Of a DNA stretch of 64,000 bases, positions 30,158 to 54,497 are shown one piece after another. The stretch is from positions 1 through 64,000 of the forward strand of contig JBBHKE010000696.1 in NCBI GenBank assembly GCA_037447655.1, read 5' to 3'. This DNA comes from Zygnema cylindricum. Its lineage: Eukaryota; Streptophyta; Zygnematophyceae; Zygnematales; Zygnemataceae. The position numbers were made by a program, and so were the translations under genes. The stretch's first letter is position 1, and each line of letters begins with the position of its first letter. Below the pieces are notes generated by a model. It searched no databases, was not told the origin of the DNA, and saw only the letters and a list, made by a program, of their open reading frames with translations.

Positions 30158-31351
30158 TGTCAAGGTCATGTGCTTTTCAGGCATGCCTTTATATCACCAA
30201 GGATTTCCGGGCCCCTTTTTCCCTGTAGGGTCCTCAGAGTACGCATGAGTGAGTGCACTAAGCCGGACGAGATCCTTGTATTTCCTAAACTGAGCGGAAC
30301 GCACTTTATTTGGCGCCAAACAGAGGCTAAATGATAAAGTTCTACCGTCTCTAAAATTGTAATTCTGTTACAAGAAGCCATTTGCCACCAGCCCCCGTGG
30401 GGGGTACATTGTGGATGGCCACGTAACTTTTCGGATTTGCATTTAGATTATGCTGGTAGGCGTCAGTAGAAATTTAGTTCAGTCTCAGCTGAATTTTCGT
30501 CCATTTATTACGTTAGGTCAAAGTCGGTCAAGTTAGTGTCATTTTTAGGATTTTGTCTATAATTGTGGACCGAATAAATACTTCCGGCCGCGGATCTAGC
30601 CGCAGTCTGGAGCAGAAATTTTTGCCCTGAGTGTAGTACAGATTAATTTGCCTTGTGTCAGTTCAATTAAACTTGCTTGCCGCTCATTAGTTAATAGCGT
30701 AGCTTTGACTTTTGGACTCGCAATTTCACAAACTTTGATGTATAAGGCACTTGGGGTCGAATAAGATAGGTTGCTTTTCAGTACTGTCTCTTGTGAAAAC
30801 CCTCAGAAATTCCATCAAACCTTCTTTTGGAGAATCTTTGTGTTGTTTCGACTCTATTGTCATCTTGGTTTTGGATCTGTCTTTTGTGGAAATCACAGTC
30901 CGGGTGGGTAGTTGGCACTATCTTCCTTTTTCGGTGATTTTGGACTTTTTGTTGTTTGGAACCGAAAAGAGTCTGGTCGGTTTCGAGCTGCAAACACCAA
31001 AGGTTGTTGGAGTACCATACCTTTTGACGATACTCTCAGGAGACGGGTCGCATTTTTCTCATTTTCATCGTTAATTGCTGGGGTATGTTGAGCTTGTTTC
31101 GCTACATTTCACATTTTATATCTTTTATTCTCTTTTCTGGGGCAAGGTGATATTGTTAAATCTGGAAAGCCAATCATATTTATCTATATATATATATATA
31201 TATATATATATCTACGTGGTAGTGCATTTGTGTCTACATCTGGAGTTCTCTTTGCTTTGGAGTTACTTTTCTGGAGTAAGCTGAAAACCCCCTGGATCAG
31301 GACAGTGGGTTTTGAGGGAACAAATGCGTTAGACTTCCGTCGACAAAGCAC
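30158..31351 (+). repeat. E1 terminal repeat A1
   Basis: It starts TGTCAAGGTCATGTGC and ends GACAAAGCAC. It is a close match to A2 (53024-54209). It carries the TATA box and predicted RNA start but lacks the B segment that precedes A2 downstream. A (TA)n microsatellite lies at about 31182-31211. Confidence 0.85.
30741..30746 (+). promoter_or_regulatory. TATA box of E1
   Basis: TATAAG in GATGTATAAGGCACTTGG, 24 bp upstream of the segment complementary to the primer-binding site. The same arrangement is found in E2 (48772-48767, minus strand). Confidence 0.6.
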
Positions 31352-31372
31352 AGTACTGAAAAGCCACCTGTC
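31351..31372 (+). promoter_or_regulatory. E1 primer-binding site, complementary to the element's own 5' RNA
   Basis: The 22 nt starting CAGTACTGAAAAGCCACC directly after the A1 end pair with 30765-30786 (GGTTGCTTTTCAGTACTG at its 3' part), 20 of 22 positions. No tRNA-type TGG start is present. This is the arrangement of self-primed elements such as Tf1. Confidence 0.6.
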
Positions 31373-31474
31373 TTCTCGGATTAGAGGGGATAGGAGCTTT
31401 CACTTTGGAAGCCTTCTTTTTGGAAGGGAGCTTTAATTCTATTCACCACTCTTTCCCCCTACACCTTTGTCATC

Positions 31475-34400
31475 ATAGGGGGAGGCGAGACTCCGGATAA
31501 CGGATCCGGAGAGCAAGGTCGACCGGAGAGGCCCATGCCGGAAGGGGAATCTTTGAGGTCCGAGGAGTCAGAGCCCATGGAGACTGTTTTTAGATCGTCA
31601 GCCAAAGAACCGTCTGGTGGTTCTTCTCCTCCTCCACCTCCTAGTCTGACTCACGAACATTACCCTTCTATGGCAAAAGCCGCCAGGGTCCATGCTGAAG
31701 AGAGCAATAGGGAGTTTCCCAAGGCTCGGCCAAAGAGGCAAGCGCAGAGGGAGCCCCATGTGGGCCCCCTTCCCGAGGTAGAGCTACATACCCGATCCAA
31801 GATTCCCCAGGTCGAGGTCCAGATTGACCCCGCGTTTTTGACGGACACCCGTCGACCAAGGAGTAAGGAACTCCTTGCCCTTCACGACCTCCATGAGCTC
31901 AAGGTGAACAAGGAGTTGGTACAAAGAGTGGCGTGGACAGATTGAGTCAGAGTGGTTAGACCCGTCGGAGGGGTGGTGGAGATTTTGAGCAGTTCTTCGG
32001 AGAGCAGCTCTTCACAGACGCTGCCAGATCGGTCCGAGAGGGCTCCCTATTCTCGCCCTCCCCCATCTTCCTCTCAGGACACCGCAGCCAGCCGACCCAC
32101 GCGGAAGGTACCTCTTCTCAGCCTCGTAGAGGAGAAAGGGGTATCAAGAGGGACGCACATGCTCTAGTGAGGGGAAAGAGGTTTGACCACCGTGACAGCA
32201 TGGGGAGATTTACACCTTTCCCCATTGAGGAGAAGTCCCTGACTCCTATTCCACCCTCCACCGAGAGACCCGCTCCCAACACAACTCGTGTCTGCTTTGC
32301 CGAAGGGCTCTGGGGATCCAAGCCTAAGGTTTTGGATACAGGACTATCAGATTTGTCCGAGCGATGGTGGCGGACCAGACCTAATGATCCTGAATTTCCG
32401 AGCACCGAGATAGCAGATCTTACCAATGTAGTGGAAAAAGCCAAGCAACTAGTGGAGGTTCTGAAATCCCAGGGACAGGCTATGGCGGGAGCCAAACCCG
32501 TCACGGAAGATTGGGAGGCCTTAGAGGAAGAGAGGCGAAAGGCATGGGAACAGGAATTGACGCTTATAGGGAAGCTCGGCGTAGGACAACTGGGATTCTT
32601 AGCGGGAAGATTCCTCTTACCTCACAGATAGGGCTGCATTCAGAAGCTCCAGCAGTGGGGACTTCTCCTCCCGCCAGTTCCCAGCCTGAAAGGCCTTCTT
32701 CAGAGCCAAGCGAAGAGCTTCCCCTTCCGCGGAAAGGGGAGGAAAACAGAGGACCTAATGTGGAGGGTTTAGGTGCAGATCTACCTTATGGAAACACTTC
32801 GGCTCATCGAGAAGAGACCACCTTTGTCACGGTGGAGGTGTCTACTGTTGTGGAGGCTTTAGTGGAGTTACAACCTGACGAGAGGATTCACATCCCCTTG
32901 AGGGCTCCGACACCCCCTCTCACCTCTCCCAGAAAATCCTCGGAGCCCCTATCTTCTGCTCCCCCACCTTATTCCTCTCACTTTTGGAACACGCCACAGG
33001 TCCTCGCGATTGTCGAGATCCCTCTCCTTCGCCATCCGTTTCTCCCGGTGCAGCTGTCCGTGGGTCGCTTGGTCCGTCTGTGTTGCCCTACGAACACGAC
33101 GTACCTGCCTATTCACCTCCTCATCGACGCTCTCCTTCCTCCAGCTCCGGAACTTCCCCTCTTGAGACCTCTAGGAGGCGCACCAGAGACAGACACCTTT
33201 ACCCGCAAGGGCTCCGCTCTCTCCTTCTAAATCCCCTTCTCCGTCTCCGCCACCAGCCATTCCTCAAAGGCCTGGGAACAAGCCGCGCCTCCACATCCCA
33301 TCGGTGGCAACCGTCCTCCAGGATCCACAATATTCTGCTGGATATAGAGGAGTAGTGGGGGACATCCTACCTCCAACCATCTTCTCCAGCGCTGGTACTT
33401 CCTCATTGGGAGGGGGATCCACACCACAGGGGGCCGCACCTTCTAGCAGGCAAGGACCCGGTTTCGATCGCGAGGAAGAGGATACGAGAGTCATCTCACC
33501 CGCTTAGTTTGTCAGTCCCATCGGGCCTTCCTCTTCCCATTTCACCAACTTTGCAGAGGAGGAAAAGGAAATGGGGATATTCGGATCTTTACCGGAGATA
33601 GCTCGGGGATTGCATTCTCATATTTCTAGTTGTTGTGGAAATCTTTTACCCAATCTGAGATAAACAAGTACCGGACGGGAACCATTCCGGATGACTTCGA
33701 AACCACCCTTTTCCACATGATGGTCAACTACCGGTTTGGAGGGGCGTTGGCTGATTATAAGGAGCGTCAACCTCTTTTGATGGCTCGTAGCATTAAAATC
33801 TCGGATCCAGCCGTTGATGACGCTGTTTTGCAAGCGGAGGCTGACTTGGCCGCGGCTACGGCGACCCTTGTGACTGCTACCTTTACATAGGGCATGAAAT
33901 TACAGGCGCAAGGAAGTGCCTATGTTAACCAGCTGCAGGCGATCCAGGAAGCCTAAGCAGCAACTCGCATGGTGGCCAACCCAAACCCTTGTACCACCCT
34001 GCTGAATATCTGGAGACTCCTCTACACAGAGAGGAACGAGTCCGCGATCAAGGAATTCACGGAATTCCGATGTTTGAAGAACGAGACTCCCTAGACTCTT
34101 TTTAACCGACTCTCCAGTCTTTGTCAAAAGACAAAGCTGTCCACGATTGATCTTCCGGCCATGGCCACAAAATATTTCATCGCCGTCCGTAATTCTTTCA
34201 GGCCGACAGGGCAGACTGCACCGGACAATTGGATTGCCGACAGGCAATTCAAGACATTAATCCCTTCGCCAAGGACATTTCTCTGGTGGCCATGAAGTTG
34301 TATGACCACTTCGTCCATAGTGAGGCAAGGGAGAAGCCCGTGACTGGCAAGGCCCGAGCAAATTTGGAAGGATTCGCCGGGGAAACCTCTTTGAAATGAG

Positions 34401-37775: not shown

Positions 37776-37925
37776 TGTCGAGCGTGCCTGGTAACCGGGA
37801 GGTCCAGGTTATATGTCGAAGGAGGTGTGCATGAGAAACCTGCAATCCACCCCAAATGCTGATGCTCCCTTGGATCCGTGATAATGCCCATCTCTATTCA
37901 TTACCCGCCCCCAGGGATATGCATA
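37776..37925 (-). repeat. E2 terminal segment B2 (shortened)
   Basis: It matches 38359-38508 (in B1) with about four differences in 150 bp. It ends GCTCGACA on the minus strand. The first ~60 bp of B are missing, removed by a deletion that also took the end of A2. Confidence 0.85.
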
Positions 37926-38356
37926 GCCGAAGGTCCTTCTATAATACACAAAATGGAAACAAAGTTATGACTCGACGTGAAAACCGCCTAACTTTGTCCC
38001 TACGTCATAAATGCTTTGCCCGGTGGTTGGGCCTGAAATAACATCATACTGACAGTTAACAGTAAGATTTACGGGATAATTCCAAATGTGACGTGTCGTT
38101 CTCTAAGGTATCCCTCTACTAGAGCTACATAGAACACACACTATAATGGATCAGACACTTTGCACCGGACTAACTCCTCAGGTCGACCTCCGTTTAAGGT
38201 GAACTAAAGTGCGTAGTGTTCCAGGATGAAAATAGAAAGATCTGATCCGGCTGATTGTCCTCTTCCTTCTCAGTACGCTAAAGTCCGTCCCAAGTGGAAT
38301 GAAGCCCCGGAACTCCTAGGAGTGCAAATGTGCCGAAGATGCACACGCGCTTGACA
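37926..38356 (-). repeat. E2 terminal segment A2 (shortened)
   Basis: It matches the first 431 bp of A1 (48926-49356) with about 11 differences by eye, from TGTCAAGCGCG to GGACCTTCGGC. The downstream ~750 bp of A are deleted. Confidence 0.88.
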
Positions 38357-38358
38357 GC

Positions 38359-38568
38359 TGTCGAGCGTGCCTGGTAACCGGGAGGTCCATGTTATATGTC
38401 CAAGGAGGTGTGCATGAGAAACCTGCAATCCACCCCAAATGCTGATGCTCCCTTGGATCCGTGATAATGCCCATCTCTGTTCATTACCCCCCCCCAGGGA
38501 TATGCATAGAGAGTAAGGAGGAATGGAGTGGAAAAGAAAAGTACCCTGTTCCCCCCTTCCCATATTTC
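38359..38568 (-). repeat. E2 internal segment B1
   Basis: It lies between the polypurine tract (38580-38565) and A2. It starts GAAATATGGGAAGG and ends GGCACGCTCGACA, separated from A2 by the dinucleotide GC. Confidence 0.8.
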
Positions 38569-38580
38569 CCCCCCCTCTTA
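38565..38580 (-). other. E2 polypurine tract
   Basis: TAAGAGGGGGGGGAAA on the minus strand, directly after a short inverted repeat around CTAATCCTCTTAGTCACGTG. E1 has the same tract at 52722-52737. Confidence 0.75.
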
Positions 38581-38609
38581 GTCCCACGTGACTAAGAGGA
38601 TTAGACAGA

Positions 38610-38954
38610 TTAGCCGCCAAACTCGCAGTCCCCACAGAACCACGGATTTGCGGGTTGAGAGCGGGGCTCCCAATTCAGAGGTAGGCAGCAGTCATGCCAC
38701 CCCTGGTGACAGCATTCACACACCAACAGGAGGTAGGGTACAGAGGACACATGGCAGGCAGAGGAACAGGCTGGAGGGTCTGCAAAATAAGTGAGGTGGA
38801 AAATGGGTTCATCCTCTAACCCTCGCAGATGGCAAGGTGCCACATTGATCTGATTTTCTTTAATTTTGCGGCTATCCTTTCCTTCCAAGGTAAGAACCCT
38901 TTTGTTCGAGACCTCCACCACTTTCAGAATCATTCGTCCGGCCGAAATGTCCAA
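38610..38954 (-). pseudogene. E2 integrase tail with C-terminal PHD finger
   Basis: A β-rich segment (GRMILKVVEVSNKRVLTLEG) ends the integrase. It is followed by CSSAC, then VCECCHQGWHDCC, then FCGDCE and stop (TAA 38612-38610). This fits C4HC3 PHD spacing (C-x2-C-x4-H-x2-C and final C-x2-C), with an unusual C-x3-C first pair and Trp before the His. PHD fingers often read histone H3 tails. In chromoviruses a chromodomain at this place guides integration, so a targeting role is inferred. All eight ligands are present in this copy. Confidence 0.78.
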
Positions 38955-38966
38955 AGTATCCTTCTT

Positions 38967-40010
38967 CTATTGCATGCGATACACAAAATCCCCAGGCACA
39001 AATCCACGTTGCCGGGGGACATAATTGCCGCTCCGTCGTTGGGAATTCCAGAGTTGATCTCTGTGCTGAGCAGCCTGTAAATTGCCCATGGCCAGAGGTA
39101 TTTCACGCTGAAATACCTTAGCCCGGTCGGCAATCAGTTTCTCTACAGTACCCCGGTTGTCCATCTCCGGAAGAACAACCGCCTGAGCTGACGCAGCCCC
39201 TGGTAGGATGGGATGTCGGCCGAAGGAATGAAGTAAGGGCTATTGGAGTGGAGAGATGCCTGCCTGCTGAACCTGTACCCCATAGCAATCCAAGGCACCC
39301 GTGTGTCCCACTCCCCCAAATCCTCTTCAACCGCATATTTCCGTAGTGACCGCTTCACTGTCTGTACGCACCTCTCGGCCAAGCCGTCGGCTTGGGGGTG
39401 GTCTCGGCTGGTTAACCTGTGGTCAATGTGGCACTTCTCCAAAAGGTTAGAGAATTCTCCGGCAAACTCGGACCCCTGATCCGTCAGAACTTCGGCCGGT
39501 GCTCCAAATTGAGACAACACTCTCTGCAAGAATGCGTCCGCGATTGCTTTGGACTCCTTTCGGGGAAGAACCACCAATTCAATTCACTTAGAGAAGTGTT
39601 CAATCATGACCAGAACAAAACGGTTCCCCCTCTGGCTCGTAGGAAGTGGTCTTAGCACATCTAGTGACCATCTGTAAAACATCCCCCGGATGGGGAGGGA
39701 GTGAAGCTCAGTCCCACCCTTTTTGTCAAAAGCTGCTTTTACCCGGTCACAGGAAGGGCACGTCTGCACCACAAGATTGACCAGGGCCCGCAACCCATGC
39801 CACCAATACGACCCTGTGACTAGCGAGGTGGTTCGTTTTTGTCCGAAGTGCCCGCATTGCTGGTGAAGCCGAACAATGAGCGTTTCTCGATCTGCCGGAG
39901 GGGGAACCTCTTTCCTCGTCCCATTGGCCCATTTCCAGAGAAGGATGCCTCGGTCCCATTCATAAGGCGCCATTCGGTTCTGAGCACAGGACAAATGACT
40001 TCGGAAAGGT
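38967..40010 (-). pseudogene. E2 integrase
   Basis: The N-terminal HHCC zinc domain has LHQQCGHFGQKRTTS and QTCPSCDRVKAAF (about 39900-39735). The core follows with YRWSLDVLRPLPTS (first Asp), EVLTDQGSEFAGEF (second Asp) and HPQADGLAERCVQTVKR (Glu), D to E spacing of 34 residues. Between 39584 and 39577 a stop splits the core; a frameshift near 39150 precedes LIADRAKVFQREIPLAMGNL. It is a DDE-type retroviral-like integrase, not a tyrosine recombinase, despite the split repeats. Confidence 0.8.
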
Positions 40011-40189
40011 GGGATAGAGGAGAGCCTTTCTGGATAGATTGGAAGGAATCGCTGTCATTCGATATATCCTTCCGGCCGACTCCAATGGGGGCCTGCCCCT
40101 CTACATCTGCAGCAAAAGTTGACACTACTCCTTCGGCCCGAGGCAGCCAAATAAAAGCAGAGGAAGCCCGGATGAGTCCCAGGCTGAGC

Positions 40190-41864
40190 TCAAGGTCTTC
40201 GTCATGTCGTGCCCCAGTAGAGTCTCTGGTGGAAGGGTCCGGATTCCTGCTGAGTCCGTCGGCATTTCCATGAATCTCCCCGGCTCAATGGATAATGCTG
40301 AAATCATATTCTTGCAAGATGAGAACCCATCTGGCTAGCTTTCCAGTCAGCTTACTGTTCTCCATAATCCATTTGAGTGGTTGGTGATCCGTAATGAGGG
40401 TGAAGTGTACTCCATAGAGGTAAGGCTGGAAGTGCTGGATGGCCCAAACCGCGGCGAGTAATTCCCCATGGTAATTGCTGTAATTCCCCTCTGCTCTGTT
40501 ATTACTCCGGCTTGCGTAGGCCACTACGTACTCAGCCCCTGCATCGTCCAATTGAGCCAAAACTGATTCTAATCCGAACCTGCTCTAATCTGTATAAAGG
40601 AGAAAAGGCCGCTGGTGATCGGGCATCCGGAGCACAGGATGCTGTTTGAGGGAATCCTTCAAGAATTGGAACGCTATCTGCTGTTCTTCCTTCCACTGCC
40701 ACTCCTAGTCCTTTCGCAACAATTAGTTCAATGGGTGAGCGTGGCTACTGAATTCAAGAATAAACCGCCGGTAATAGTTGGCCAGGCCCAGGAAAGTACG
40801 AAGAGCAGAGATGTCGTGCGGGGGTGGAAGAGCATCTAGGGCTGCCACCTTAACCATGTGGGACCCACTGTCTCGGGAGTCACCTCATGACCCAGATAAA
40901 TAATTTTCTGCACCCCATAGATGCCCTTCCCCGGGTGACACTTCAAACCTGCTGCTTGGAGTGCCCGGAGAACGATCTGTATGTGCTCCAAGTGTTCTTC
41001 GAAGGTCTTGGAGAAAATGATAACATCGTCGATATAACACCGTGCGAAATCAATTCCCCGGAGAGCCTCGTCCATGGCCCGTTGGAATTTGGCAGGTGCA
41101 TTCTTGAGGCCAAATGGCATGTACAGCCATTCATATAGCCTGGATCCGGCCCAAAAACCAGTCCTCTCTCGGTGTTTCGGCTCCATTGCAATCTCGTGGA
41201 ATCCATTTTTCATATCCAAAGTAGAGTAAATGGTGGCCCCACCAAGAGAGTCAAAGATCTCTTCCGGGGTAGGCATAGGATAACGGTCGGAGACAGTTGC
41301 CGCGTTGAGCATCCGATAGTCCCCACACATCCGGAAATCTACAGTTTTTCCGGAGGAGTCTTTCTTTGGCAGGAGCACGGTTGGTGAGGCAAACCCATGT
41401 AGTCCTGTACTCATCTAAACCAGCCCAGCTTCCACCAAAGTCTGCACCTTTGAAGTGATGAACTCCTTCTCCTTGAAACTGAGAGGGTACTGTTTCTGCC
41501 AAACAGTAGCCGTCTCGTCGATCAAGTTAATCCGAAAAGGAGTCCCTTTATAGATCCCTACATCGGTGTCAGACCACGCGAACACCTGCCAAATATCTTC
41601 TAACGGCTTGGAGAGCCGGGCCTTCTGCTGTGGGTCTAGCTGTTCACCTAAAGTCCAGTCCATCTTCCCGGGTTCCACTGCCACTAAGGCTTCCGGTGGT
41701 CTACCCAAGAGAGAGATGTCCAAGGTCAGCTCTACCTGTGGGTCGGTCCCTTGTTCGGCTGTTAAAACGCTGCTGCTGACAACTTCCTCTAAGTTGTCTT
41801 GTTCTGGGACTCTGCCCCCCCCCCACTAAGGGAACTCTTGGGTCCAGTGTGGCATTGCTCCGCC
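40190..41864 (-). pseudogene. E2 reverse transcriptase and RNase H
   Basis: RT starts with a linker and WTLGEQLDPQQKARLSKPLE, then SPTVLLPKKDSSGKTVDFRM, MPFGLKNAPAKFQRAMDEAL and the active site CYIDDVIIFSKTF. RNase H has YVVAYASRSNNRAEGNYSNY (Glu present) and FTLITDHQPLKWIMENSKLT. An in-frame TAG (41414-41412) replaces Gln relative to E1. A run of ten G (41824-41815) upstream shifts the frame by +1 relative to a nine-G ancestor; E1 has eight. Other indels occur near 40836 and 40285. Confidence 0.8.
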
Positions 41865-41999
41865 CCACTGAGGAAGTTCCTGGGAATTTGGTGAATGTGA
41901 ATTTTTCCCTCCTTGTCTCTCACCCCCCCTCTAGCTTTAGAGTTGCTTGCATGGCCAACAACTGTGGAGCTTGAAGGTATGTTGTCCGTGATTTTGGAG

Positions 42000-43131
42000 A
42001 CTGAAGGCTTGAGAATGCAAGAGAATGTTTCAGCACCCAGGAAATTGCATTTAAATCCATGCTTTGTCCGATTAAACTTCACCTTTTTGAAGCCGATACC
42101 CCTGGCGCAGCTGTGGTTCCCTGTTGAAACCCCATTTCTTGTTCCCGTTCTGTAATATTCGGCGCTGTCCACGTGGCGGTTGTACTGTCAAAGATCATTC
42201 CTGGTGCGCCCTTCCGGTAAGCGTGGCTATTAGGAAAAGATACCAGTGTTGGGAGGGCCCTCCGTGGATACCCAGGCTTATTACAACAGAAGAAGGGTGA
42301 TTTGTCGGCTGTGATCACCGGTGTGGCCATTCGCCCCGGACCGAGGATCTGTTGGACCGTTATGTTGGGATCTGTAACCTGTGTTCTCAACAGCTGTTGG
42401 AGGATTGGAAGAGGAACCAAGTTGGTCCAATATGCTCGAACTTTGTGGGCTCTTGATCCGATCTGAGCTGCATCAAAAACTATGGGAGTCCCTAGAACCT
42501 TGGTCACTTGGTTCCAGCTGCTAACCACCTGTTTTCTCTTATCATCTGTGGGGTGAACGTTTTCCAAGATGTACCCCACTGGTGTGTCCTGGCGTTCCTG
42601 TAACCCTGTTATTAGTCTGGTTATTTGAAAGAAAGTTCTGCTTCGGACGTCCTGGTGTCCTCGGCCCTGTCCTGCTAACGAATACCTATGGCATGGCCAT
42701 CCAGCGACCACCAGGTCTACCCTTCCAAGCTTTTCCAGATGAGACTCTGTGATATTACCCACATTCTGGGGAAGCGTGCGATGAGAGTTAGACATGGCGG
42801 TCACCGGGACTTGCTATGGGTAAAGTTGGTGCAGCTGTTGCAGGCGGTACTCACTGACTGCACGGGCGTCCGGGTCTATGTCGACTGCCGAGTAAGTTTC
42901 TATTTGGTTTCCAGCTTTCAGGACGGCTTCCAGATCGGAACTAATGCCATAAAATAGGGATAGAATCCTAAGTCCTGAAAGCGGGATTTGTAGTGACACC
43001 ACTTGTCGATTAAAGTCTTTCCTTTTGTTAAGAACCGTTGGTAGTTCCGACCGGGGGACTTTTGCTGCTCCGGGTGATATTGCAGCCAAGCTCCTGTCCA
43101 CTTCCCGCCGATGTGTGGCCATCTGTACCAA
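42000..43131 (-). pseudogene. E2 C5 cytosine methyltransferase (DNMT3-like), nearly complete
   Basis: Motif I LRILSLFYGISSDLEAVLKA (from 42969) is followed by ETYSAVDIDPDARAVSEYRL. Motif IV DLVVAGWPCHRYSLAGQG has the catalytic Cys at 42693-42691. Motif VI YILENVHPTDD has Glu at 42564-42562. Motif VIII is SRAHKVRAYWTNLVPLP. The target-recognition region has FFCCNKPGYPRRALPTLVSF. Motif IX is ITEREQEMGFQQGTTAAPG, and motif X-like SMDLNAISWVL follows an in-frame TGA (42081-42079). One further stop (TAG, 42816-42814) lies between motifs I and IV. Cytosine-C5 methylation of DNA is the family activity. It is placed between protease and RT, unlike any standard gypsy element, and separated from the protease by the shared TAG at 43179-43177. 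Confidence 0.85.
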
Positions 43132-43176
43132 TCGGTTCTGATACTCCTTTTCCCAGCGTTTGGAAATAGGGAATTG

Positions 43177-43905
43177 CTAGATAGAATCAGCGATATCGTT
43201 GGAGTATTTGAACAGCTCCGAGGGGGTTGAGGCAGAGTAGACGGGATAGCATCCAGACACCGGAACAGTCGTTTTTCCCCGGTTCCACAAATCTAAGGGG
43301 ACCACCACTTTTGTTCTTTTCGGATCCTCAAGGTCTGAGACTGTAACTTGTTCCTTCCATACGCTCAACTCCATGTTCAACCTTGTCCAGGTAGCCATAC
43401 CCAGCAAAATCTCAAATTGCTTACCTTCCACCACTAGGAAGGGAAGCCGAATCTGCACGTGTTGGCCTGCGTCGTCAGCAAATTCGATTTCCATGGCTTA
43501 TATGATCCCATATACGGGTTGGCTGCCAGTGCTGACTGTGCTCTAGCATATGTCACTTGGACTGATTTTTGGTCGGAGTTCCTCGGGCATTTGTTATAAC
43601 GCTGATGTAGTTATTAAGTTTGGAAGAGCTCCGCTATCCACCACTGCATCCTGGTACCCGGCGTATCCATTAAGTTTAAAATTTCCCGTCCTGTTGAGAA
43701 TAAGAGCCACCGAAAGGGCCTTATAATCCCTATCTGCCATAGAGGTTTTTGGTTCTGCCGACATGAAAACTGTCTTGGGCGGTTCTGCCAACGCGACCCT
43801 TTTCCTCCTAGTGTGAATTTCTTCCCCTAATGCCTGAATGAGGGTTTCTTCGGGCAGATTGTGGGAGGAAGCCAACGTTTTGAAATGCGTCAAGGCGTAG
43901 GGCAT
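43177..43905 (-). pseudogene. E2 retropepsin
   Basis: The active site AVVDSGALPNLITTSAL (DSG) is intact. The C-terminal block FEILLGMATWTRLNMELSV is present. Three stops interrupt the middle (about 43590-43498), at positions that are sense codons in E1. It ends at TAG 43179-43177, conserved in E1. Confidence 0.8.
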
Positions 43906-44076
43906 TAAGTGTCGTACTAGCTTAACTGCCGGTTTGGAGGAAGGAGGGAGAGCTTTGGGCGATGAAATGGGTGAGTCCTCGTCTTCAGATTTCTCCTGTT
44001 CTCCCCCTTTTTCTTCCTCACTTTCTGCGTCAGAATTCCCCGTAGGAGGTGTAATTGGCGGATCTGCGGACGGTCT

Positions 44077-47000
44077 CTATGCCATGTATCTGTCAAAGCA
44101 TGCGGACGGTCTCTCTGCCATGTATCTGTCGAACCACTCTTGATCTGTTTCAGTGGTTGAAGTATTTTCTTTCGGCTGTGTCTTCTTGTAATCTTCAAAA
44201 CCGGGAGGAAGTTTCTTCGGAGCAAGAGGAGGCGGGTTAGTCGGCTTGAGTCCCAGTCCAACGTCACTGTTTAGAAGTACTGCTCGCGGGGTAAAGGATA
44301 AGGGGCCGATGGTTTTGCGACTGTGGTCCTTTTGTTCCATCGGTTGTTTGTCTTTTCTTTGGGAGGACGTTGTAGAGCGCAGTTGTCTGCGACTGTCCCC
44401 TACACCAACGTTCCATGCTCCGGACAGAAATGTCCTGGCATGCTGAGCCTTTGGAGGCTCCATATCCCAACCCATCGGGTCATCATCGTCTCCACCCAAC
44501 GTGGTCTGCTGCTCCAGCTCCGCTAGCTTTTGTAGCAGTTCTTGTTTTTGTTTCTGTAGTTTCTGAGCCGGCGTAAGAGGTGGAGGAGTGTGGACAAAGG
44601 ATCGCAGTCGGAGAGCGGCCAGTTCTGTTGCCAAAGCGGCCAACTGAATGCTCTGTTGCTGAATGATATGTTCCGGTGTCAGTCTGCTGGGCCCCGGTTC
44701 ATTAGGAGATCGTCCCCAGGGATACAAAAGTTGCAGTGGCAGAGGATTAACGGCAGTTTCCCCTTCGCCTGTAAACAATGCATACTGCATCATCTCCTTC
44801 GGAACCCCATTTTTCCGAAAGCATTGCCCTTCTTTGTGGCCCATGAACCCACAAGCTTCATATTTTGACCCTTCAGTAGTATACTTCCCCCTTAGCTCAT
44901 TAGAGATTTGAGCGTCATCGAATTTCGGAAGTCGGATTTGTCTCAACTGGGATTGAGACATTTTGGAGGTTTCAGAGCGTGGAGTAGGTTTATAGGTTTC
45001 CTTAGTGACCGGGGTTCGGTCTCCTCTTCCGCCTCCTTGCTTGCGTTCTTGCTGTTTCCTTGTTCTTTCCGCACGCTCCCTTTCAAACTCCTTCTGTTTG
45101 ATGGCGAGTTCTGGTTTGAGCTTTCGGGGGCACCTTTTCCATCCGTGACCCGGCTAGTTACAGTTCAGGCAGTCGTAAAGAAAAACTTTTTCATCTCCCC
45201 CCATTGCAGGTTCTGGTCGGGCATCCGCTTCCTGTTTCCCTTTAAGCTTCCGCAAAGCTTGCAGTTCTGTCTGTTCGTCGTGGCTTAGCGATGTTTCCTC
45301 GGCGAAACGTGCAAAGTTGGCTCTGGATTTCCCGGTCACAGCCTTTTCTCGTGCCTCGCTATTAACAAAATGATCATACAATTTCATAGCAGCCAATGAA
45401 ATTTCTTGAGCTGTGGGATTCCGATCGTGTATAGCCTGACTGGCGCTCCAATTGTCCAGGGCTGCTTGTCCTGTTGGCCCGAAGGAATTTCGAACAGCGA
45501 CATAATATTTGGTGGCCATAGCTGGTGTTTCGATGGTGGACAGTTTGGTCTTCTGGCAGAGGCAGGAGAGGCGGTTGAACAACGTCTGGGGAGTTTCATT
45601 CTTCAAACAGCGGAAGTCTGTGAACTCCTTGATTGCAGTTTCGTTCCTTTCGGTGTAAAGGAGTCTCCAAGCGTCCAGAAGAGTGGTACAGTGATTCGGA
45701 TTGGCAACCATCCTGGTGGCTGCTTCGGCTTCCTCTACCGCCTGCAGGTGGTTGACATAGGCCCTGCCTTGGGCTTGAAGTTTCATATCCATGGTGAAAG
45801 TGGCGGTGAGAGGAGCTGCGGCTGCGGCAGCCAAGTCGGCTGCTGCCTGAAGAACCTCGGTGTCCAGAACCGGATCCGATATTTTGATAATGGGGCCCAT
45901 TAACAAAGGTTGATGCTCCTTATAATCGGCCAAAGCTCCTCCGGCTAGATAATTTACCATCATCGGAAACAGGGTTGTTTCAAAATCTGCTGGAATGGCC
46001 CTTCCCCTGTATTGTATAATTTCAGACTGCGTGAAGGATTTCCACAGCAGCTCAAAATCAGAGAAGACAATTCCCGAGTTGTCCCTGGTGAAGATCCGGA
46101 CGTCTCCCATTTCTTTTTCCTCCTCTGCAAGGTTGGTGAACTGTGAAGAGGATGGTCCGGTTGGGCTAACAAACTGGACCGGTGAAATTACCCCTGGATC
46201 TGCGTTGTCTGGCTCGGGCTCGCCTCCTTCTCCGGTAGAGGGAGCGGTCTTGGGAAAAGCTGCTCCAAGTCCTGCTCCTCTATACCCAAGAGAGGCCCAT
46301 TCCTCCCGTTGAAGTGTTTCCACCGAGGGAATGTGGAGAATGGGTTTAGTCACCGGTGGTCATTGAGGGATTGGTGGAGAAGGGGATGGAGATGACGGAG
46401 GGCTACGAGGGAAAGGTGTCTGTCTCCGTGTACGCCTTGTGGAGGTTTCTGGTGGATGAGTTCCTTCGCTGGAACCGGGAGAACGTCGGTGAAGAGGAGA
46501 GTAAGCAGGAGCGTTGTACTTGTAGGGTAAGACTGGTGGTCCCGGTGACCCATGGACTGCAACGGCCGGAGAAACAGAAGGCGAAGGGGAGGATGCCTGA
46601 GGTGGCGATGGAGGAGGAGTAGTAAGTCCGAGGGAAATGTGTAGTCTCCGGTCTAGTTGTAGCTGCACCACGGCCTCCACGGTAGAAAATCCCTCGACCG
46701 AGACAAATGTAGGGAGATCTGTAGCCGCGGCTACCGGATCACTCGGCAAATCTACACCCAACCCCTTTTTGTTAGGCCCTGTTGTTTCCTCCCCTTCCCG
46801 CTGAAGAGGAGATTCTGGTCTAAGTTCTGTGGAAGTCCGGGGATCTCGCGTGACAGGGGGAGTTGCATGATCCAGAGGTTGTAATTCCGCCGTGGGACCT
46901 GTTCTACGGGGAGGTGCTACCTGTCCACTAAGGATTCCCCTAGATCTCCGTCTAGCCTCCCGTATCAGGATCAGCTCCTGTTCCAATGCTTTCTTCCTTT

Positions 47001-48071
47001 CCTCTTCAAGGGCATCCCAATCTATTGCGACGGGTTCGGCCCCCGCCGTAGCTTTATCCTGCGATCGCAGATCTCAACCAATTTCTGGGTGCTGCTCACC
47101 ACACCCGAGAGATCCGCAATCCCCAAACCGGGTACCTCAGGATCCGTAGGCCTTGAACGCCATAGTCCTTCGGATGGTCGGACAACTGGTGCGGAAGGAG
47201 ACATAGAGCTTGGGGAAACTGAGGCAGAAGGAAAGAACGTCTCTTCTTTGACTAAGGGAGCAAATCGACCTTTGCTGTCCCGATGGTTGAACCGGAAATC
47301 TCTCTTAGGCTCAGGTATCTTCCGCTTGCTACTCCCTTCCCTGGTCCGGCCCCGGGAAGTTGCTATGCCCCTAGAAGGTCTACTGGTAGCAGTTTCCTGA
47401 GATATGGTGGGCTGTTGTCGTGAAGTGGACGGCATCTCCGGTTGCTCTCGGGCTGAGATGGGAGAGCCACTCTCGGACGAGCTACTCAGGATCTCCACTA
47501 CTCCTCCCACGGGGCGTATGATCCGGGCTCGGTCACTTCTGGCAACCCGCTGCACCAGCTCCTTCTTAACCTTCAACTCATGGATATTGTGAAGGGCTAG
47601 AATCTCCTTACGACCGGGTCGGTTAGGGTCCGACAAGAGTTCAGGATCCATATATGTCTCCACTATTGGAGCCTTAGATCTGGTATAACGTACCACCTCG
47701 GGAGGGTGGCCTGGGACCGCTTCCTTGTGAGCCAAACCCTTTCTACGAGATCGGGGAGATAAAGGTTGTTTTTCTTCCTTCCCCGTGGCCCTAGCCCTAG
47801 CGGCCTCGGACAACGTCGGAAAGTTTTCAGGGGAAAAGACTGGAGGAGGTGGAGGTGAGGGTTGCCTCTCTGTCGGCCTCGGAGGAGTCTCGACGACAAC
47901 CGGCTGGGGCATCATCCCCTTAAGAAACTGTTCAATGTTCAAAGCAGAGGTGAAAGGGACCGATTCCTCAGGCACCTGGGACTCTTCCTCTTGTGCCACC
48001 CCTTCTTGTCTTTCCTGTTCTTCCGGACTAACACCGGAAGGATCCCTATCCGGAGATTCTCCTCCGCCCAT
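44077..48071 (-). pseudogene. E2 gag
   Basis: ATG at 48071 opens a 349-residue Pro/Ser-rich N-terminal frame (MGGGESPDRDPSG). A frameshift near 47055 leads to 46986-45154 with a stop at 46362-46360, and capsid-like ELLWKSFTQSEIIQYRG. Two zinc knuckles follow: the first (CLNCN, stop, PGHGWKRC) has a TAG where E1 has Gln; the second has Tyr for the first Cys (YEACGFMGHKEGQC). A 33-bp duplication of FDRYMAERPSA lies at the end (about 44060-44125). The Gag of this family is unusually long because of its disordered N-terminal half. Confidence 0.8.
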
Positions 48072-48148
48072 GACTTACACGAGCAGATGAGCTAGATCTC
48101 TCGGATAAAATACACCACCCTAAGCAGCTATCCTCTTAAACAAAAGGG

Positions 48149-48170
48149 GACAGGTGGCTTTTCAGTACTG
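48149..48170 (-). promoter_or_regulatory. E2 primer-binding site, complementary to own 5' RNA
   Basis: On the minus strand CAGTACTGAAAAGCCACC directly follows the A1 end (GTAGCAC). It pairs with 48748-48727 (GGTTGCTTTTCAGTACTG at its 3' part) at 21 of 22 positions. A TATA box (TATAAG, 48772-48767) lies 19-24 bp upstream of that segment. Confidence 0.65.
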
Positions 48171-49356
48171 TGCTACTCCACTGGGAGCCCACTAAATGCC
48201 ACACTCCCAGCTACTCTCCAAAGAATAGGAAGGAAATGAGAGTCGTCCGATCCTTTCCGCGAAAACTCCGGACAAACCCAAGGATGACCACAAGAGTGTG
48301 CAAATAACTCCCATGCAGAAATATAGAAATAATATTTATCGGCTTTTCAGATTAAACAATATCACCTTGCCCTAGAGAATGAAATTAAAGATAGTAATGA
48401 ATGATAATGGTGAAGCGAATTCACATACCCCGGAGTGCAACGATGGCCAAACTCAGTAGAAGAAACCTCTCCCAATGGCCTCGAAGACCGGTGTGAGTCT
48501 CCCTCAACCCTCCCGGTTCCACCGCAAGGACCCGACAAGACTCTTCTTAGTTTCAAACAGCGAAAGTCCAAGCCGCCCAAAGAGGAGATAGTGCCAACTA
48601 CCCACCTGTGCTACGGTCTCCACAAAAGACAATCCAAAACAAAGATGGCAATAGAGTCCACGACACAATGCAACCGTTCTCCAACAGAAAGATTGATTTT
48701 AATTCTCTGGGGGTTTTCTCAGGAGACAGTACTGAAAAGCAACCTGTCTCCTTCGGCCCCAAGTGCCTTATACAATTTGAGTTTGTCCTACTGCAAGTTC
48801 CAAAGTCAAAGCAATTTAACAAGCCAATCAGCGGCCAGCAATTGTTATCGTCCTGACATAAGACAAAACAGACTATACTACACTCAGGGCTAAAAGATAG
48901 ACGACTGGTTTCGGCTGAATTGGCGGCCGAAGGTCCTTCTATAATACACAAAATGGAAACAAAGTTCTGACTCGACGTGAAAACCGCCTAACTTTGTCCC
49001 TACGTCATAAATGCTTTGCCCGGTGGTTGGGCCTGAACTAACATCATACTGACAGCTAACAGTAAGATCTACGGGATAATCCCAAATGTGACGTGTCGTT
49101 CTCTAAGGTATCCCTCTACTACAGCTACATAGAACACACACTATAATGGATCAGACACTTTGCACCAGACTAACTCTTCAGGTCGACCTCCGTTTAAGGT
49201 GAACTAAAGTGCGTAGTGTTCCAGGATGAAAATAGAAAGATCTGATCCGGCTGATTGTCCTCTTCCTTCTCAGTACGCTAGAGTCCGTCCCAAGTGGAAT
49301 GAAGCCCCAGAACTCCTAGGAGTGCAAATGTGCCGAAGATCCACACGCGCTTGACA
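48170..49356 (-). repeat. E2 terminal repeat A1
   Basis: It starts TGTCAAGCGCGTG at 49356 and ends GTAGCAC at 48170. The promoter-downstream half is related to E1 A1 (CCCTGAGTGTAGTA, TATAAGGCACTTGGGG), while the first 430 bp differ from E1, so the two elements are distinct subfamilies. Confidence 0.85.
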
Positions 49357-49360
49357 ACAC

Positions 49361-51320
49361 TCTCCTTTTCCAATTTCACGTCCCCGGAATCGAGAGCTAT
49401 TTACCTTCAAGCTCCTCAGTTATTAGCGGTGCAGGTAACTTTGCGCTTGAGGGGGGGAGAGAAAGGAGAAGAAAAACCAAACTTCACATTTTACCCTCGC
49501 AGGTTTTCCTACTGGGGGGGGACAGCGGCTCCGATGGTGAAAGCTTAGCGGAAGTTGTCAGCAGCAGTGTACTAGCCAGAGAGATAGGGGCAGATCCACC
49601 GGTAGGGTTGGAATTTGACATTAACCTCTGGGTAGACCGCCGGAAGCTTGGGCTGCCGTTGAGCTAGGGAAAATGGATAGGACCCTGGGGGAGCAATTGG
49701 ACCCTCAACAGAAGGCGCGACTCTCGGAGCTGTTGGCCGAAAACAAACAGGTGTTCTCATGGTCAAAAACAGACGTCAGTATCTACAAAGGAACACCCTT
49801 CCGAATTGATTTGATCGACGAGATGGTTACTGTTTGGCAGAAGCAGTATCTTCTCAGTTTCAAGGAAAAGAAATTCATCACGGCTAAAGTCTTGACCTTG
49901 GTGGAAGCCGGATTGGTTCAAGAAAGTACCGGACTTTAGGGGTTCGCTTTCGGACAATCCTCCCTCCCAAAAAAGTCTCGTCCGGGAAAACTGTACATTT
50001 CCGGACGTGTGGAGACTATCGCATGCAGAACACGGCCCCCATCTCTGACCGGTATCCGATGCCGACTCCGCAAGAGATATTCGACTCTCTTGTAGGCGCC
50101 ACTATATATTCCACTGTAGACATGAAGAATGGTTTCCACCAGATTGCAATAAAACCAAAGCACCGGGAGAGAACTGCATTTTGGGCGGGTTCCAGACTAT
50201 ATGAATGGATTTACATGCCCTTCGGGCTTAAGAATGCACCAGTAAAATTCCAAGAGGCCAAGGACGAAGCACTCCGAGGAATCGAGTGTGCCCGGTGCTA
50301 TATTGATGATGTTATTATATTCTCAAAGACTTTTGATGAAACCTGGAGCATATCCAGATCGTTCTCCGGGCACTCCGAGCAGCGAGCTTGAAATGTCACC
50401 CGGGCAAAGGCATTTTTGGGGTGCAGAAAATCATTTACCTCGGACATGAGGTGACACCTGGGACTGTGGGTCACCACATGGTCAAGGTGGCAGCCCTTGA
50501 CGCTCTTCCCCCACCACAGGACATCTCCGCTCTTCGCACTTTTCTGGGTTTGGCCAATTACTATCGGCGGTTTATCTCAGAGTTAAGTAGTCACGCCCAA
50601 CCCCTTAACCAGCTACTGCGGAAGGACCAAGAGTGGCAGTGGGCCAAGGATCAACAGATCTCCTTCCAGTTCTTGAAAGATGCTCTGAAGGAGCACCCCG
50701 TGCTCCGGATGCCTGATCACCAAAGACCTTTGCTCATATATACTGATTGGAGCAGGTTTAGATTGGGAGCTGTTTTGGCTCAAATCGATGATGCCGGAGC
50801 TCAATATGTGGTGGCTTACGCCAGCGGGCTGAGTGGAATTATAGCAGTTACCACGGAGAGTTACTCGCAGCTGTTTGGGCCATCCAGCATTTCCGACCAT
50901 ATTTGTACGAAGTCCATTTCACACTGATTACGGATCACCAACAATTGAAATGGATCGTGGAAAATAGTAAGTTGACCGGCAAACTCGCCAGATGGGTTCT
51001 TATTCTACAGAAATATGATTTCGACATTGTTCATAGGGCAGGGGAGATCCATGGGAATGCCGACGGACTTAGACGGAATCCTGATCCCTCCACCATGGAT
51101 TCTACCGGGGCTCGACATGATGAGGACCCTGAGATCCGCTTGAGAATCATTCGAGCCTCCTCTGTTTTCATCTGGCTTCCCCAATCTGGAGGGGAACTGT
51201 CAACTTTCTCTGTCGATGTGGAGGGGCATGCGCCAATAGGGGCCGGACGAAGGTCATCTAGAACGACCCCGATGCTCTCCAATCTATCCAGCAAGGGTCC
51301 CCTCTTCCCCACTTGACTGG
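49361..51320 (+). pseudogene. E1 linker, reverse transcriptase and RNase H
   Basis: It continues E1 after the E2 insertion. The linker has YLQAPQLLAVQVTLRLRGG. An eight-G run (49514-49521) shifts the frame before WVDRRKLGLPLS. RT contains RTLGEQLDPQQKARLSELLA, then after a stop SDRYPMPTPQEIFDSL, MPFGLKNAPVKFQEAKDEAL and CYIDDVIIFSKTF. A frameshift follows, then HPGKGIFGVQKIIYLGHEV. RNase H (50750-51050) has RPLLIYTDWSRFRLGAVLAQ and FTLITDHQQLKWIVENSKLT. Multiple breaks make it non-functional. Confidence 0.8.
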
Positions 51321-51449: not shown

Positions 51450-52470
51450 TAATCTCCATCGGCAATGTGGACCACTTCCCTGGTTACGGGCTCTTATTGG
51501 TGGCATGGGTTGCGGACCCAAGTCAACCAAATTGTGCAAACTTGCTCTTCATGCGATCGCGTTAAGGCAGCTTTTGACAAAAAAGGCGGGACTGAGCTTC
51601 ACTCACTACCTATCCGAGGGATGTTTTATCGGTGGTCGTTGGATCTGTTGGGACCCCTTCCGACCAGCAGGCGGGGGAACCGCTTTGTGCTGGTTATGAT
51701 ATAACATTTTTCCAAGTGCATCGAGTTGGTGGTTTTGCACTGGAAGGAGTCCAAGGCAATTGCCGATGCCTTTTTGCAACGGGTGCTGCCCCAATTCAGA
51801 GCGCCGGCGGAAGTTTAGACCGACCAAGGCTCCGAATTTGCCGGAAAATTTTCCAACCTCTTCAAAAAATGCTTGGTCGACCATCGCCTAACCAGCCGTG
51901 ACCACCATCAAGCCGACGGTTTAGCCGAAAGGTGCGTACAGACAGTGAAGCAGTCACTACAAAAATATGCCGTAGAAGAAGATTTGGGGGAGTGGGACAG
52001 AAAAGTACCTTCGATTGCTATCGGTTACAGATTTTGCAGGCAAGCTTCTCTCCACTCCTATAGCCCTTATTTCATTCTATTTGGACAATATCACATCTTG
52101 CCCAGAGCTGCATCGGCCCAATCGGTGGTCTTATCGCAGATGGATGACAAGGGGACAGTCGAAAAAACTGATCGCGGACAGGGCCAAGGTATTCAACCGA
52201 GAGATGCCTCTCGCCATGGGCAATTTGCAGGCGGCTCAACACCGAGATCAATTGTGGTATTCTCAGCGCCGGAGTGGGAATTATATGCCCCAGCAGCGAC
52301 AATTTACGTCAGGAAACTTTGTATATCGAATGCAACAGAAGAAAGACACGCTGGATATTTCTGTCGGGAGGGTAATATTGAAAGTGGTCGAGGTGTCCAA
52401 CAAGGTGTTCTTACATTGGAGGGGAAAGATGGTCGTCGAATTAAAGAAAATCAGATCAATGTGGCCCCTG
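51450..52470 (+). pseudogene. E1 integrase
   Basis: The zinc domain is partly present (CGPLPWLRAL-like frame, then QTCSSCDRVKAAFDKKG). The core has YRWSLDLLGPLPTSRRG, then TDQGSEFAGKFSNLFKKC after a TAG, and HQADGLAERCVQTVKQSLQ with the third acidic residue. A tail homologous to E2 (MPLAMGNLQAAQHRDQLWY) leads to the PHD finger in another frame. Confidence 0.78.
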
Positions 52471-52504
52471 CCATCTTCGGGGATTGGAAGACAAACCAAC
52501 TTTC

Positions 52505-52684
52505 TACTTAACTTACTGTGCCGATCCTCCCTCTTGTTCCTCAGCGTGCAACCAGTCTTCCCAGCTGCACCACCTATTGGTCTGCAATCAGTGTGGTCAG
52601 TGTTGGCATTCAGCCTGTCTCCCCCCCTATTGGGAGCAACACCATATACCCTCGAGCATCTGAATCTGTGAGAACTGCGAATGA
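52505..52684 (+). pseudogene. E1 C-terminal PHD finger
   Basis: Frame 52505-52684 reads CSSAC, then LLVCNQCGQCWHSACLPPYW, then ICENCE and TGA (52682-52684). The C4HC3 spacing equals that in E2, including the C-x3-C first pair. A TGA before ICENCE corresponds to the Trp codon of E2 (PWFCGDCE), a G-to-A change. Conservation of all ligands between the two diverged copies argues for a selected function in the ancestor. Confidence 0.78.
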
Positions 52685-52721
52685 AGTTGGTAATTGTTTT
52701 CATATCTTAGTCACGGTTGAC

Positions 52722-52737
52722 TAAGAGGGGGGGGAAA
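52722..52737 (+). other. E1 polypurine tract
   Basis: TAAGAGGGGGGGGAAA, same as in E2. It borders B1, not A, which shows that reverse transcription treats B+A as the LTR. Confidence 0.75.
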
Positions 52738-53021
52738 TTGGGGATATCGGCCCGATTGCTGAGACCGTAATCCCTTCCCCCAATCAAAGGGGGGAGGAAG
52801 GAGGAGGGGATAACTTTCGCCTTCCCCTTTGCCCTCATCCCCATTCACTGCTCGTGCCTCTCTCCTATTTTTGCATGTATATCCATGGGAGGGATGCAGG
52901 CAGCAATGGGCATGATCATTATTTTGGGAAGCCCTTGCATTTGGGGTTTATTTGCAAGACTCCAATGCCAACGACTCTGGGCTGTGGGCCCTTCCCTCAC
53001 GTTAATCAGGCACGCTCGACA
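52734..53021 (+). repeat. E1 segment B1
   Basis: It starts GAAATTGGGGATATCGG and ends CAGGCACGCTCGACA. It is repeated as B2 at 54210-54497 with scattered differences. It is separated from A2 by the dinucleotide AC. Confidence 0.85.
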
Positions 53022-53023
53022 AC

Positions 53024-54209
53024 TGTCAAGCTCATGTGCTTTTTAGGCATGCTTTTATATCACCTAGGATTTCCAAGCCCCTTATTCCCTGTAAGGTCCT
53101 CAGAGTACGGATGAGTGAGTGCACCAAGCCGGACGAGATCCTTGTATTTCCTAAACTGAGCGGAACGCACTTTGAATGGCGCCAAACGGAGGCCGGATGA
53201 CAAAGTTCTATCGTCTCCAAATTGCAATTCCGTTACAAGGAGCCATTTGCCACCAGCCCCCGTGGGGGGTACATTGTGGATGGCCACGTAACTTTTCAGA
53301 TTTGAATTTAGATTATGCTGGTAGCCGTCAGTAGAAATTTAGTTTAGTCTCAGCTGACTTTTCTTCCATTTATTACGTTAGGTCAAAGTCTGGCAAGTAA
53401 GTGTCATTTCAGGATTTTGTCTTATAATTGTGGACCGGATAAATACTTCCGGCTGCGGATCTAGCCGCAGTCCGGAGCAGAATATTTTTCCCCGAGTGTA
53501 GTACAGATTAATTTGTCTTGTGTCAGTTCAATTACACTTGCTTGCCGCTCATTGGTTAATAACGTAGCTTTGACTTTTGGACTCGCAATTTGACAAACTT
53601 TGATGTATAAGGCACTTTGGGCCGAATAAGATAGGTTGCTTTTCAGTATTGTCTCCTGTGAAAACCCTCAGAAATTCCATCAAACCTTCTTTTGGAGAAT
53701 CTTTGTGTTGTTTCGACTCTATTGTCATCTTGGTTTTGGATCTGTCTTTTGTGGAAATCACAGTCCGGGCGGGTAGTTGGCACTATCTTCTTTTTTGGGT
53801 GATTTTGGACTTTTTGTTGTTTGCAACCAAGAAGAGACAAGTCGGTTCTGAGCTGCGAACACCGAAGGTTGCTGGAGTACCATACCTTTTGACAATACTC
53901 TCGGAAAGGGGTCGTTTTTTTCTCATTTTCATCGTTGATGGCTGGAGTATGTTGAGCTCGTTTCGCTACATTTCACATTTTATATCTTTTATTCTTTTTT
54001 CTGAGGCAAGGTATTATTGTTAAATCTGGAAAGCCAATCATATTTATCTATATATATATATATATTTATGTACGTGGTAGTGCATTTGTGTCTACATCTG
54101 GAGTTCTCTTTGCTTAGGACTTACTTTTCTGGAGTAAGCTGAAAACCCCCTAGATCGAACAGTGGGTTTTGAGGGAACAAATGCGTTACACTTCTCGTCG
54201 ACAAAGCAC
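53024..54209 (+). repeat. E1 segment A2
   Basis: It is a close match to A1 (30158-31351), from TGTCAAGCTCATGTGC to GACAAAGCAC. It is followed directly by B2, whereas A1 is followed by the primer-binding site. A short (TA)n tract is at about 54049-54066. Confidence 0.87.
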
Positions 54210-54497
54210 GAAATTGGGGATATCGGCCCGATTGCCGAGACCCTAATCCCTTCCCCCGATGAGGGGGGGGAGGAAGGAAGAGGGGATACCTTTCGCCTTC
54301 CCCTTTGCCCTCATCCTCATTCCGTGCTCATGCCTCTCTCCTATTTTTGCATGCATATCCATGGGAGGGACGCGGGCAGCAGTGGGCATGATCATTATTT
54401 TGGGAAGCCCTCGCATTCGGGGTTTATTTGCAGGACTCCAATGTCGACGACTTTGGGCTGTGGGCCCTTCTCTCACGTTAATCAGGCACGCTCGACA
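54210..54497 (+). repeat. E1 segment B2
   Basis: It starts GAAATTGGGGATATCGG immediately after A2 and ends GCTCGACA at the host junction with G1 gag (AATCATCACG). Confidence 0.87.

Follow-up and report, generated by a model that had tools for sequence, protein, structure and literature searches.

Split terminal repeats with a DDE integrase in a Ty3/gypsy lineage of Zygnema cylindricum: a likely integrase site inside the long terminal repeat

Background

How does a retrotransposon with the enzymes of a Ty3/gypsy element come to be inserted by ends that lie inside its own expected long terminal repeat (LTR)? The question is raised by a 64,000-nt stretch of genomic DNA from the streptophyte alga Zygnema cylindricum (positions 1 to 64,000, forward strand, of contig JBBHKE010000696.1; 'the window' hereafter), part of contig C518 (315.6 kb) in an assembly of 352.8 Mb. 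The window carries two elements, E1 and E2, both ordered A1-body-B1-NN-A2-B2, where A and B are the two parts of a split direct repeat and NN is a dinucleotide. A first-pass annotation of the window had described this order and explained it by a two-LTR circle opened inside one LTR and inserted by a DDE integrase. We consider it likely that the elements belong to an apparently self-primed Ty3/gypsy lineage, in which the integrase attachment site has moved from the ends of the LTR to its interior.

Results

Layout and coding content of the two elements

E1 (30158–54497, plus strand) is a Ty3/gypsy element, inside which E2 (37776–49349, minus strand) is nested on the opposite strand (Table 1). 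Self-comparison of the window reproduced the first-pass order and coordinates of E1 base for base, with 92.1% identity between A1 and A2 and 92.0% between B1 and B2, and also recovered the order proposed for E2, including the deletion in which its A2/B2 joint was lost. E1 starts with TGTCAAG and finishes with CTCGACA, and its B1/A2 spacer is AC, which places the motif GACA-NN-TGTC at the centre of the 3' end; the corresponding spacer in E2 is GC. The ends of E1 can be taken as real because an uninterrupted paralogue of the empty target runs from the left flank straight into the right flank. Copies beginning at A and finishing at B, as first described, were seen in E1, E2 and the family at large.

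The proteins of E2 include a reverse transcriptase (RT; 3.2e-28), RNase H (6.1e-31) and an H2C2 zinc finger (9.8e-15), followed by an integrase core (rve) slightly under the Pfam cut-off (8.9e-07; 29.5 bits against 32.6), whose best solved relative is Ty3 Gag-Pol (8.7e-09). The zinc finger and the Ty3-like core uphold the earlier call of a DDE integrase, and the domain order RT, RNase H, H2C2/DDE integrase is that which defines Ty3/gypsy (Metaviridae). A DNMT3-like methyltransferase is encoded upstream of RT (2.7e-11 to DNMT3A). Among 43 distinct open reading frame (ORF) pieces, namely one of 72 aa and 42 of the 58 on the sense strand that reach 75 aa or more, none had a Pfam match to a tyrosine recombinase, although one could escape notice in a badly disrupted frame. 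Both elements have broken frames; an altered genetic code was rejected for the stops within E2 frames, and since pieces are ended by all three kinds of stop codon, the copies look simply decayed. Relatives of the RT with named hosts came from Closterium, Klebsormidium, the liverwort Calypogeia and, weakly, Gregarina, while viral contigs of IMG/VR provided neither a confirmed relative of the E2 RT piece nor an exact match to a self-primer pattern.

Predicted priming and reverse transcription

The putative primer binding site, AGTACTGAAAAGCCACCTGTC, stands directly behind A in E1 and E2 alike, and its complement is found inside A at 19 of 21 positions in E1 and 20 of 21 in E2 (best scores in 300 shuffles each were 16 and 15, respectively). 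An mRNA start would be expected at this self-primer, which lies ~24 bases downstream of the first base of a TATA box. In four copies (L009, L055, L056 and L067) primer and site have changed in step, to five T and five A respectively, and in L069 four T are mismatched with five A. A G-rich polypurine tract immediately precedes B, so that both of the signals reported in the first pass, the tract at B and the primer site at A, were found in place. Primer site and self-primer form the self-priming layout of the elements Tf1 and Tj1, with a predicted mRNA start that, together with the R region, probably falls inside A. With the primer site next to A and the polypurine tract next to B, reverse transcription should give the linear cDNA B-NN-A-body-B-NN-A.

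Forms of the family across the genome

The exact B-NN-A junction pattern, TCGACANNTGTCAAG, occurs 231 times in the genome, well beyond chance expectation, as opposed to three times for a reversed control. The first 20 matches were all fetched: 16 proved to be family members (11 with the order B-NN-A-B, five with a shortened A and no B2 found) and four were unrelated. Two matches outside the family, L038 and L042, have similar surroundings and probably represent another repeat family.

Fifty A copies were then classified, comprising 30 of the 41 loci listed by an E1-type search and 20 of the 40 places listed by an E2-type search, the latter chosen with same-contig pairs first. Twenty-nine were flank/A-body, 16 B-NN-A-B (including L056, scored so despite one changed GACA base, for which the automatic call was flank), four flank-A-B and one body-B-NN-A-body (L029). 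An ordinary B-A LTR next to flanking DNA (flank-B-NN-A-body or B-NN-A-flank) was seen in none of the 50; the first-pass annotation had named plain B-A LTRs in most full-length copies as the outcome that would overturn it. Its view that the order is no one-off rearrangement also holds, as the structure recurs on dozens of contigs in subfamilies ~70% alike. In L026, a diverged A-B piece (69–70% alike) stands ahead of B-NN-A-B. A survey starting from B (40 places, 39 examined) had 30 body-B ends continuing into NN-A.

As an independent test, 29 places with an exact A-end/primer-site sequence (contigs up to C1204; 59 in all) were compared with 92 of the 231 junctions (100 listed). Among the junctions compared, nine of these places, two of them E1 and E2, had one 9.7–22.7 kb downstream, and 19 had none within 30 kb. 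Plain B-A LTRs would give equal numbers of upstream and downstream junctions, and the nine found downstream only therefore argue against them.

The same surveys bear on the idea that rearrangement or misassembly produced E1 and E2 from an ordinary element with an A-B LTR. Although A-B alone has TG...CA ends and body-less A-B copies exist (L016, L027, L065), this explanation is already contradicted by the number of contigs and the divergence of the subfamilies, by the primer site behind A and the polypurine tract before B, and by the 4-bp target duplications and the joint renewal of B1 and B2 at each insertion (both below). We regard it as extremely improbable.

Target site duplications

An exact 4-bp duplication was present at nine of 15 target sites (C2666, C10, C507, C1508, C2344, where it is A-rich, both sites of C544, C2496 and the solo copy L065). 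Three of four bases matched at four more (E1, AATA and AATC; E2, GTGT and GTGC; solo copies L016 and L027), and there was no duplication at two. At 13 sites, that is all 15 minus the two failures (C1374 and C2183), 48 of 52 bases matched, in comparison with a mean of 16.3 and a maximum of 34 in a shuffle test; C1870 was excluded as not being one insertion. A short duplication of fixed 4-bp length is a product of the DDE type. The earlier annotation had spoken of a 3–4 bp duplication: the duplication exists, while its length is 4 bp wherever it is exact, and E1 and E2 are three-of-four matches. Two other readings were tried and dropped. C1870 as a 3-bp duplication failed since E2 sequence continues differently there and each of the two A copies of C1870 has a closer relative than the other, and an overhanging NN base retained at the left end, considered for the imperfect matches of E1 and E2, was rejected because the odd base differs from NN and most other sites are exact.

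Variable joints and renewal of the repeats

The A2/B2 joint was readable in 23 of 25 E2-like A-B copies. Its modal form, GTAG(C/T)ACAAAAT, found in eight, can be read as the end of A plus one base, followed by B from the end of a G run. The remaining 15 depart from it through small indels, B deletions of ~10–25 bases, a short duplication, larger deletions or extra sequence, and copies with similar A, or nearest relatives, often carry different joints. Large joint deletions occur in E2 and L077, and we infer that several deletions are microhomology joins. L056 has the primer site and ~300 bp more between A and B, and in L081 A is truncated at base 815, with ~130 bp and then body sequence from ahead of B following it, as though priming of the cDNA ends had taken place elsewhere.

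B1 and B2 were nearest to their own partner in 31 of 34 cases, and A1 and A2 were mutual nearest relatives in E1, C507, C1374, C544 and C2666; at C10 the A of a third insertion was slightly closer, and C1508 and C2344 were not clear-cut. Both repeats thus appear to be renewed at each insertion, with the joint made afresh, as end joining would do.

In elements with tyrosine recombinases, split repeats are thought to act as a bridge. The E1/E2 family could analogously have an RNA spanning A2 and B2, with the A2/B2 joint copied from the parent as a bridge and a DDE integrase performing the insertion. The order A1-body-B1-A2-B2 is indeed that of PAT elements (PMC4157794), and eight of 23 joints share one form, as inheritance predicts. 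Against such templating, 15 joints differ, often from that of a close relative, some insertions have a joint with a wide deletion (E2, L077) or with primer-site or body sequence in it (L056, L081), and the predicted mRNA start, probably also R, lies within A, so that B2 need not be transcribed. We consider templating of this kind improbable.

Proposed mechanism of insertion

Under the preferred reading, with the integrase site inside the LTR, the anatomy suggests that the mRNA would start in A and that its 5' end would pair with the primer site behind A. Reverse transcription would then yield linear DNA, B-NN-A-body-B-NN-A, with GACA-NN-TGTC inside each LTR. Integrase would cut this motif in the left LTR and insert the resulting A end and B end, and end joining by the cell would link the outer cDNA ends (end of A, start of B), in the simplest case before insertion, to form a two-LTR circle. 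The resulting A-body-B-NN-A/B would again carry A at either end and could be transcribed.

At C544, GAAC lies to the left of A1 (L067) and AGCT to the right of B1 (L074); in an inverted A-B piece (L068), ~3.2 kb away, AGCT stands ahead of A and GAAC behind B. Identity between the two A copies is 99.3%, and L068 carries the modal joint. Judged from the sequence outside the 11-kb interval that separates A1 from B1, and with no empty site seen, C544 is a probable case of one molecule inserted through both internal sites 3.2 kb apart, with inversion of the intervening segment, a reading under which each target has its own 4-bp duplication and none of the four ends is left over. Such a double insertion would explain why B1 of C544 ends directly in other sequence and, if true, would mean that the right-hand internal site is usable too.

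A two-LTR circle is the simplest donor, and a linear molecule cut first and healed later would give the same product. In this linear sub-case of the same mechanism, the left LTR of linear cDNA is cut, the A and B ends are inserted and the remaining ends are healed afterwards, leaving the same variable joint. The left internal site would, moreover, become double-stranded earlier, after the second strand transfer, which could explain one-sided use. On the other hand, a loose B fragment of 0.2–0.3 kb must stay in the complex in nearly every event, and the A2-B2 piece at C544 (L068) bears the modal joint; we see the linear sub-case as rather unlikely. It is quite possible, if still short of probable, that the whole lineage integrates via two-LTR circles, the circle being the normal precursor and host end joining taking part in every successful cycle. 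The interpretation of the first-pass annotation is supported: joining of the linear cDNA ends is favoured by the variable joints, the renewal of B1 and B2 and the C544 locus, and the circle is one of two readings of the donor.

A number of observations weigh against the proposed mechanism. All sequence comes from one assembly, and no circle was observed among the evidence, which consists of its genomic copies. C1374 and C2183 lack a target duplication (the pairing of ends at C2183 being provisional). Nine of the 39 body-B ends go directly into other sequence, seven of them unexplained. The form expected after cutting of the right-hand site, A-B-NN-A-body-B, was found at none of the 50 A loci, a bias that the model does not predict. 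C308, alone among the 29 primer-site places, has junctions both 1.18 kb upstream and 6.5 kb downstream; C1374, L029 and L047 show odd forms; and the eight identical joints are also compatible with inheritance.

Some of these loci can be described further. Among the nine B ends, C2496 belongs to an A-body-B copy with an exact duplication, and C1965 is the last B of copy L081. Forms of the A-body-B type may derive from B1/B2 recombination, one-LTR circles or double insertions. The B ends of L081 (C1965) and L098 (C2073), both among the seven unexplained, lie on different contigs and have a common flank, ACCATCGTCGATTATC, which suggests a duplicated segment or an uncollapsed haplotype.

Both junctions at C308 (7223–14884) have GG as NN, and the locus could be a tandem, a case of the opposite opening or a plain LTR copy. 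The body-B-NN-A-body joint at C2333 (L029 and L020) lies ~14.5 kb from another A1 and is perhaps part of a head-to-tail tandem. L047 has extra repeat units at one 3' end, where a partial second A and another B come after B-NN-A-B. C1374 (20469–37451; L073, L059, L060 and L103) consists of A-body-B running into 3.7 kb of other sequence and then a truncated body end with B-NN-A-B; its A copies are 97.8% alike and have no common target duplication.

Other features of the window

Coordinates of the parts of E1 and E2 are collected in Table 1. Outside the two elements, a 1.3-kb segment present in two direct copies (94.5% alike) at 8052–13662, with further matches around it, belongs to another repeat family; an ORF in this region (10655–11779) has a weak zinc-knuckle match. 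Dense degenerate tandem repeats with long overlapping ORFs occupy 13888–15124, and a weak remnant of a copia-type reverse transcriptase (RVT_2, 8.4e-04, under the cut-off) was found at 22865–23371.

Table 1. Parts of E1 and E2 and the empty E1 target within the window
Feature	Position	Strand	Remarks
E1 repeat A1	30158..31351	+	begins TGTCAAG; contains TATA box and self-primer region
E1 A1 TATA box TATAAGG	30741..30747	+	box start 24 nt upstream of self-primer (copy L003 = E1)
E1 self-primer sequence	30765..30785	+	complementary to primer binding site, 19/21 positions
E1 primer binding site AGTACTGAAAAGCCACCTGTC	31352..31372	+	immediately 3' of A1
E1 reverse transcriptase and RNase H	49888..51313	+	pieces, frame broken
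E1 integrase	51453..52508	+	H2C2 zinc finger Pfam match; acidic motifs of core by eye, core piece without Pfam match
E1 integrase C-terminus	52445..52660	+	weak PHD-finger match, under Pfam cut-off
E1 polypurine tract AAGAGGGGGGG	52723..52733	+	directly before B1
E1 repeat B1	52734..53021	+	final bases CTCGACA
E1 NN (AC)	53022..53023	+	between GACA and TGTC; proposed internal integrase site
E1 repeat A2	53024..54209	+	self-comparison
E1 repeat B2	54210..54497	+	A2/B2 joint GCAC/GAAATT at 54209/54210
Empty paralogue of E1 target	28463..29439	+	E1 flanks 29586–30156 and 54498–54904
E2 repeat A1	48170..49349	-	sequence comparison
E2 primer binding site	48149..48169	-	identical to E1 site AGTACTGAAAAGCCACCTGTC
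E2 DNMT3-like C5 cytosine methyltransferase piece	42082..42813	-	domain match
E2 reverse transcriptase and RNase H	40288..41414	-	domain matches
E2 DDE integrase	39149..40054	-	H2C2 zinc finger; rve core slightly below Pfam cut-off; core resembles Ty3 integrase
E2 repeat B1	38359..38567	-	G-rich polypurine tract directly before
E2 NN (GC)	38357..38358	-	between GACA and TGTC
E2 repeat A2	37926..38356	-	without its 3' part
E2 repeat B2	37776..37926	-	without its 5' part; joint deletion ~37926

Discussion

Insertions of PAT and Kangaroo elements (order DIRS) are not known to make target duplications, whereas the E1/E2 family has duplications of 4 bp. The PAT, Kangaroo and Toc elements and Ngaro use a tyrosine recombinase, in contrast to the DDE integrase, TG...CA-type ends and 4-bp duplications of the E1/E2 family. 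The split direct repeats A1-body-B1-A2-B2 are common to both, and the first-pass annotation was right that such repeats are known from PAT and Kangaroo with tyrosine recombinases (PMC4157794). A DNMT3-bearing DIRS element of Symbiodinium has likewise been described with the order A-coding region-B-A-B (PMC5890265). Searches of open-licence literature, judged mostly by titles and the openings of abstracts, brought up no earlier description of a DDE integrase in an element with split repeats. Split direct repeats can accompany a DDE integrase too, beyond the tyrosine recombinases with which PMC4157794 and PMC5890265 describe them. The Ty3/gypsy criterion of direct LTRs at both ends does not describe the E1/E2 family, whose ends are the A and B of a split repeat. 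Elements of this kind would probably be misread by standard LTR finders.

Tf1 and Tj1 carry an ordinary LTR at each end. In these sushi-type elements the primer site pairs with the 5' end of their own mRNA, as predicted for E1 and E2, and the enzymes are likewise those of Ty3/gypsy (PMC4600332). Unlike Tf1 and Tj1, the E1/E2 family would have the B-A LTR expected from reverse transcription cut open by insertion.

By content, the nearest named element to our knowledge is KnitGypsy-Dnmt3. This LTR gypsy element of Klebsormidium nitens, also a streptophyte alga, has a DNMT3-related methyltransferase in Pol and so resembles E2 in its DNMT3-type domain; split repeats are not mentioned in the accessible part of its description (PMC5890265). 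The DNMT3-like domain at 42082–42813 of the window parallels that report, although the lineage is possibly different. Troyka elements, with 3-bp duplications and CG...CG ends (PMC12440569), were considered as relatives and rejected, as both ends and duplications differ.

The E1/E2 family also touches an older debate on the precursor of integration, which reportedly involved Panganiban and Temin (1984), Ellis and Bernstein (1989) and Lobel (1989). The idea of a retroviral circle precursor was proposed in the 1980s and afterwards largely dropped. In the standard view, integration is a reaction of linear cDNA ends and circles are dead ends; foamy-virus integrase can nevertheless cleave a palindromic LTR-LTR junction in vitro, and HIV-1 complexes are able to draw on two-LTR circles once a drug has been removed (PMC1180852 and PMC4372172, respectively, for the latter two; both for the standard view). 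As in foamy virus and HIV-1, a near-palindromic CA...TG junction would be cut in the E1/E2 family to give both processed ends (PMC1180852, PMC4372172). In those viruses, by contrast, the junction is the joint of a circle and circles are a side path or a disputed one, whereas in the E1/E2 family the junction would lie inside each LTR and give the usual genomic ends. An abundant lineage hardly explicable by integration of linear ends would show a working alternative to it, and would allow the old question of circles to be put to the test in living cells.

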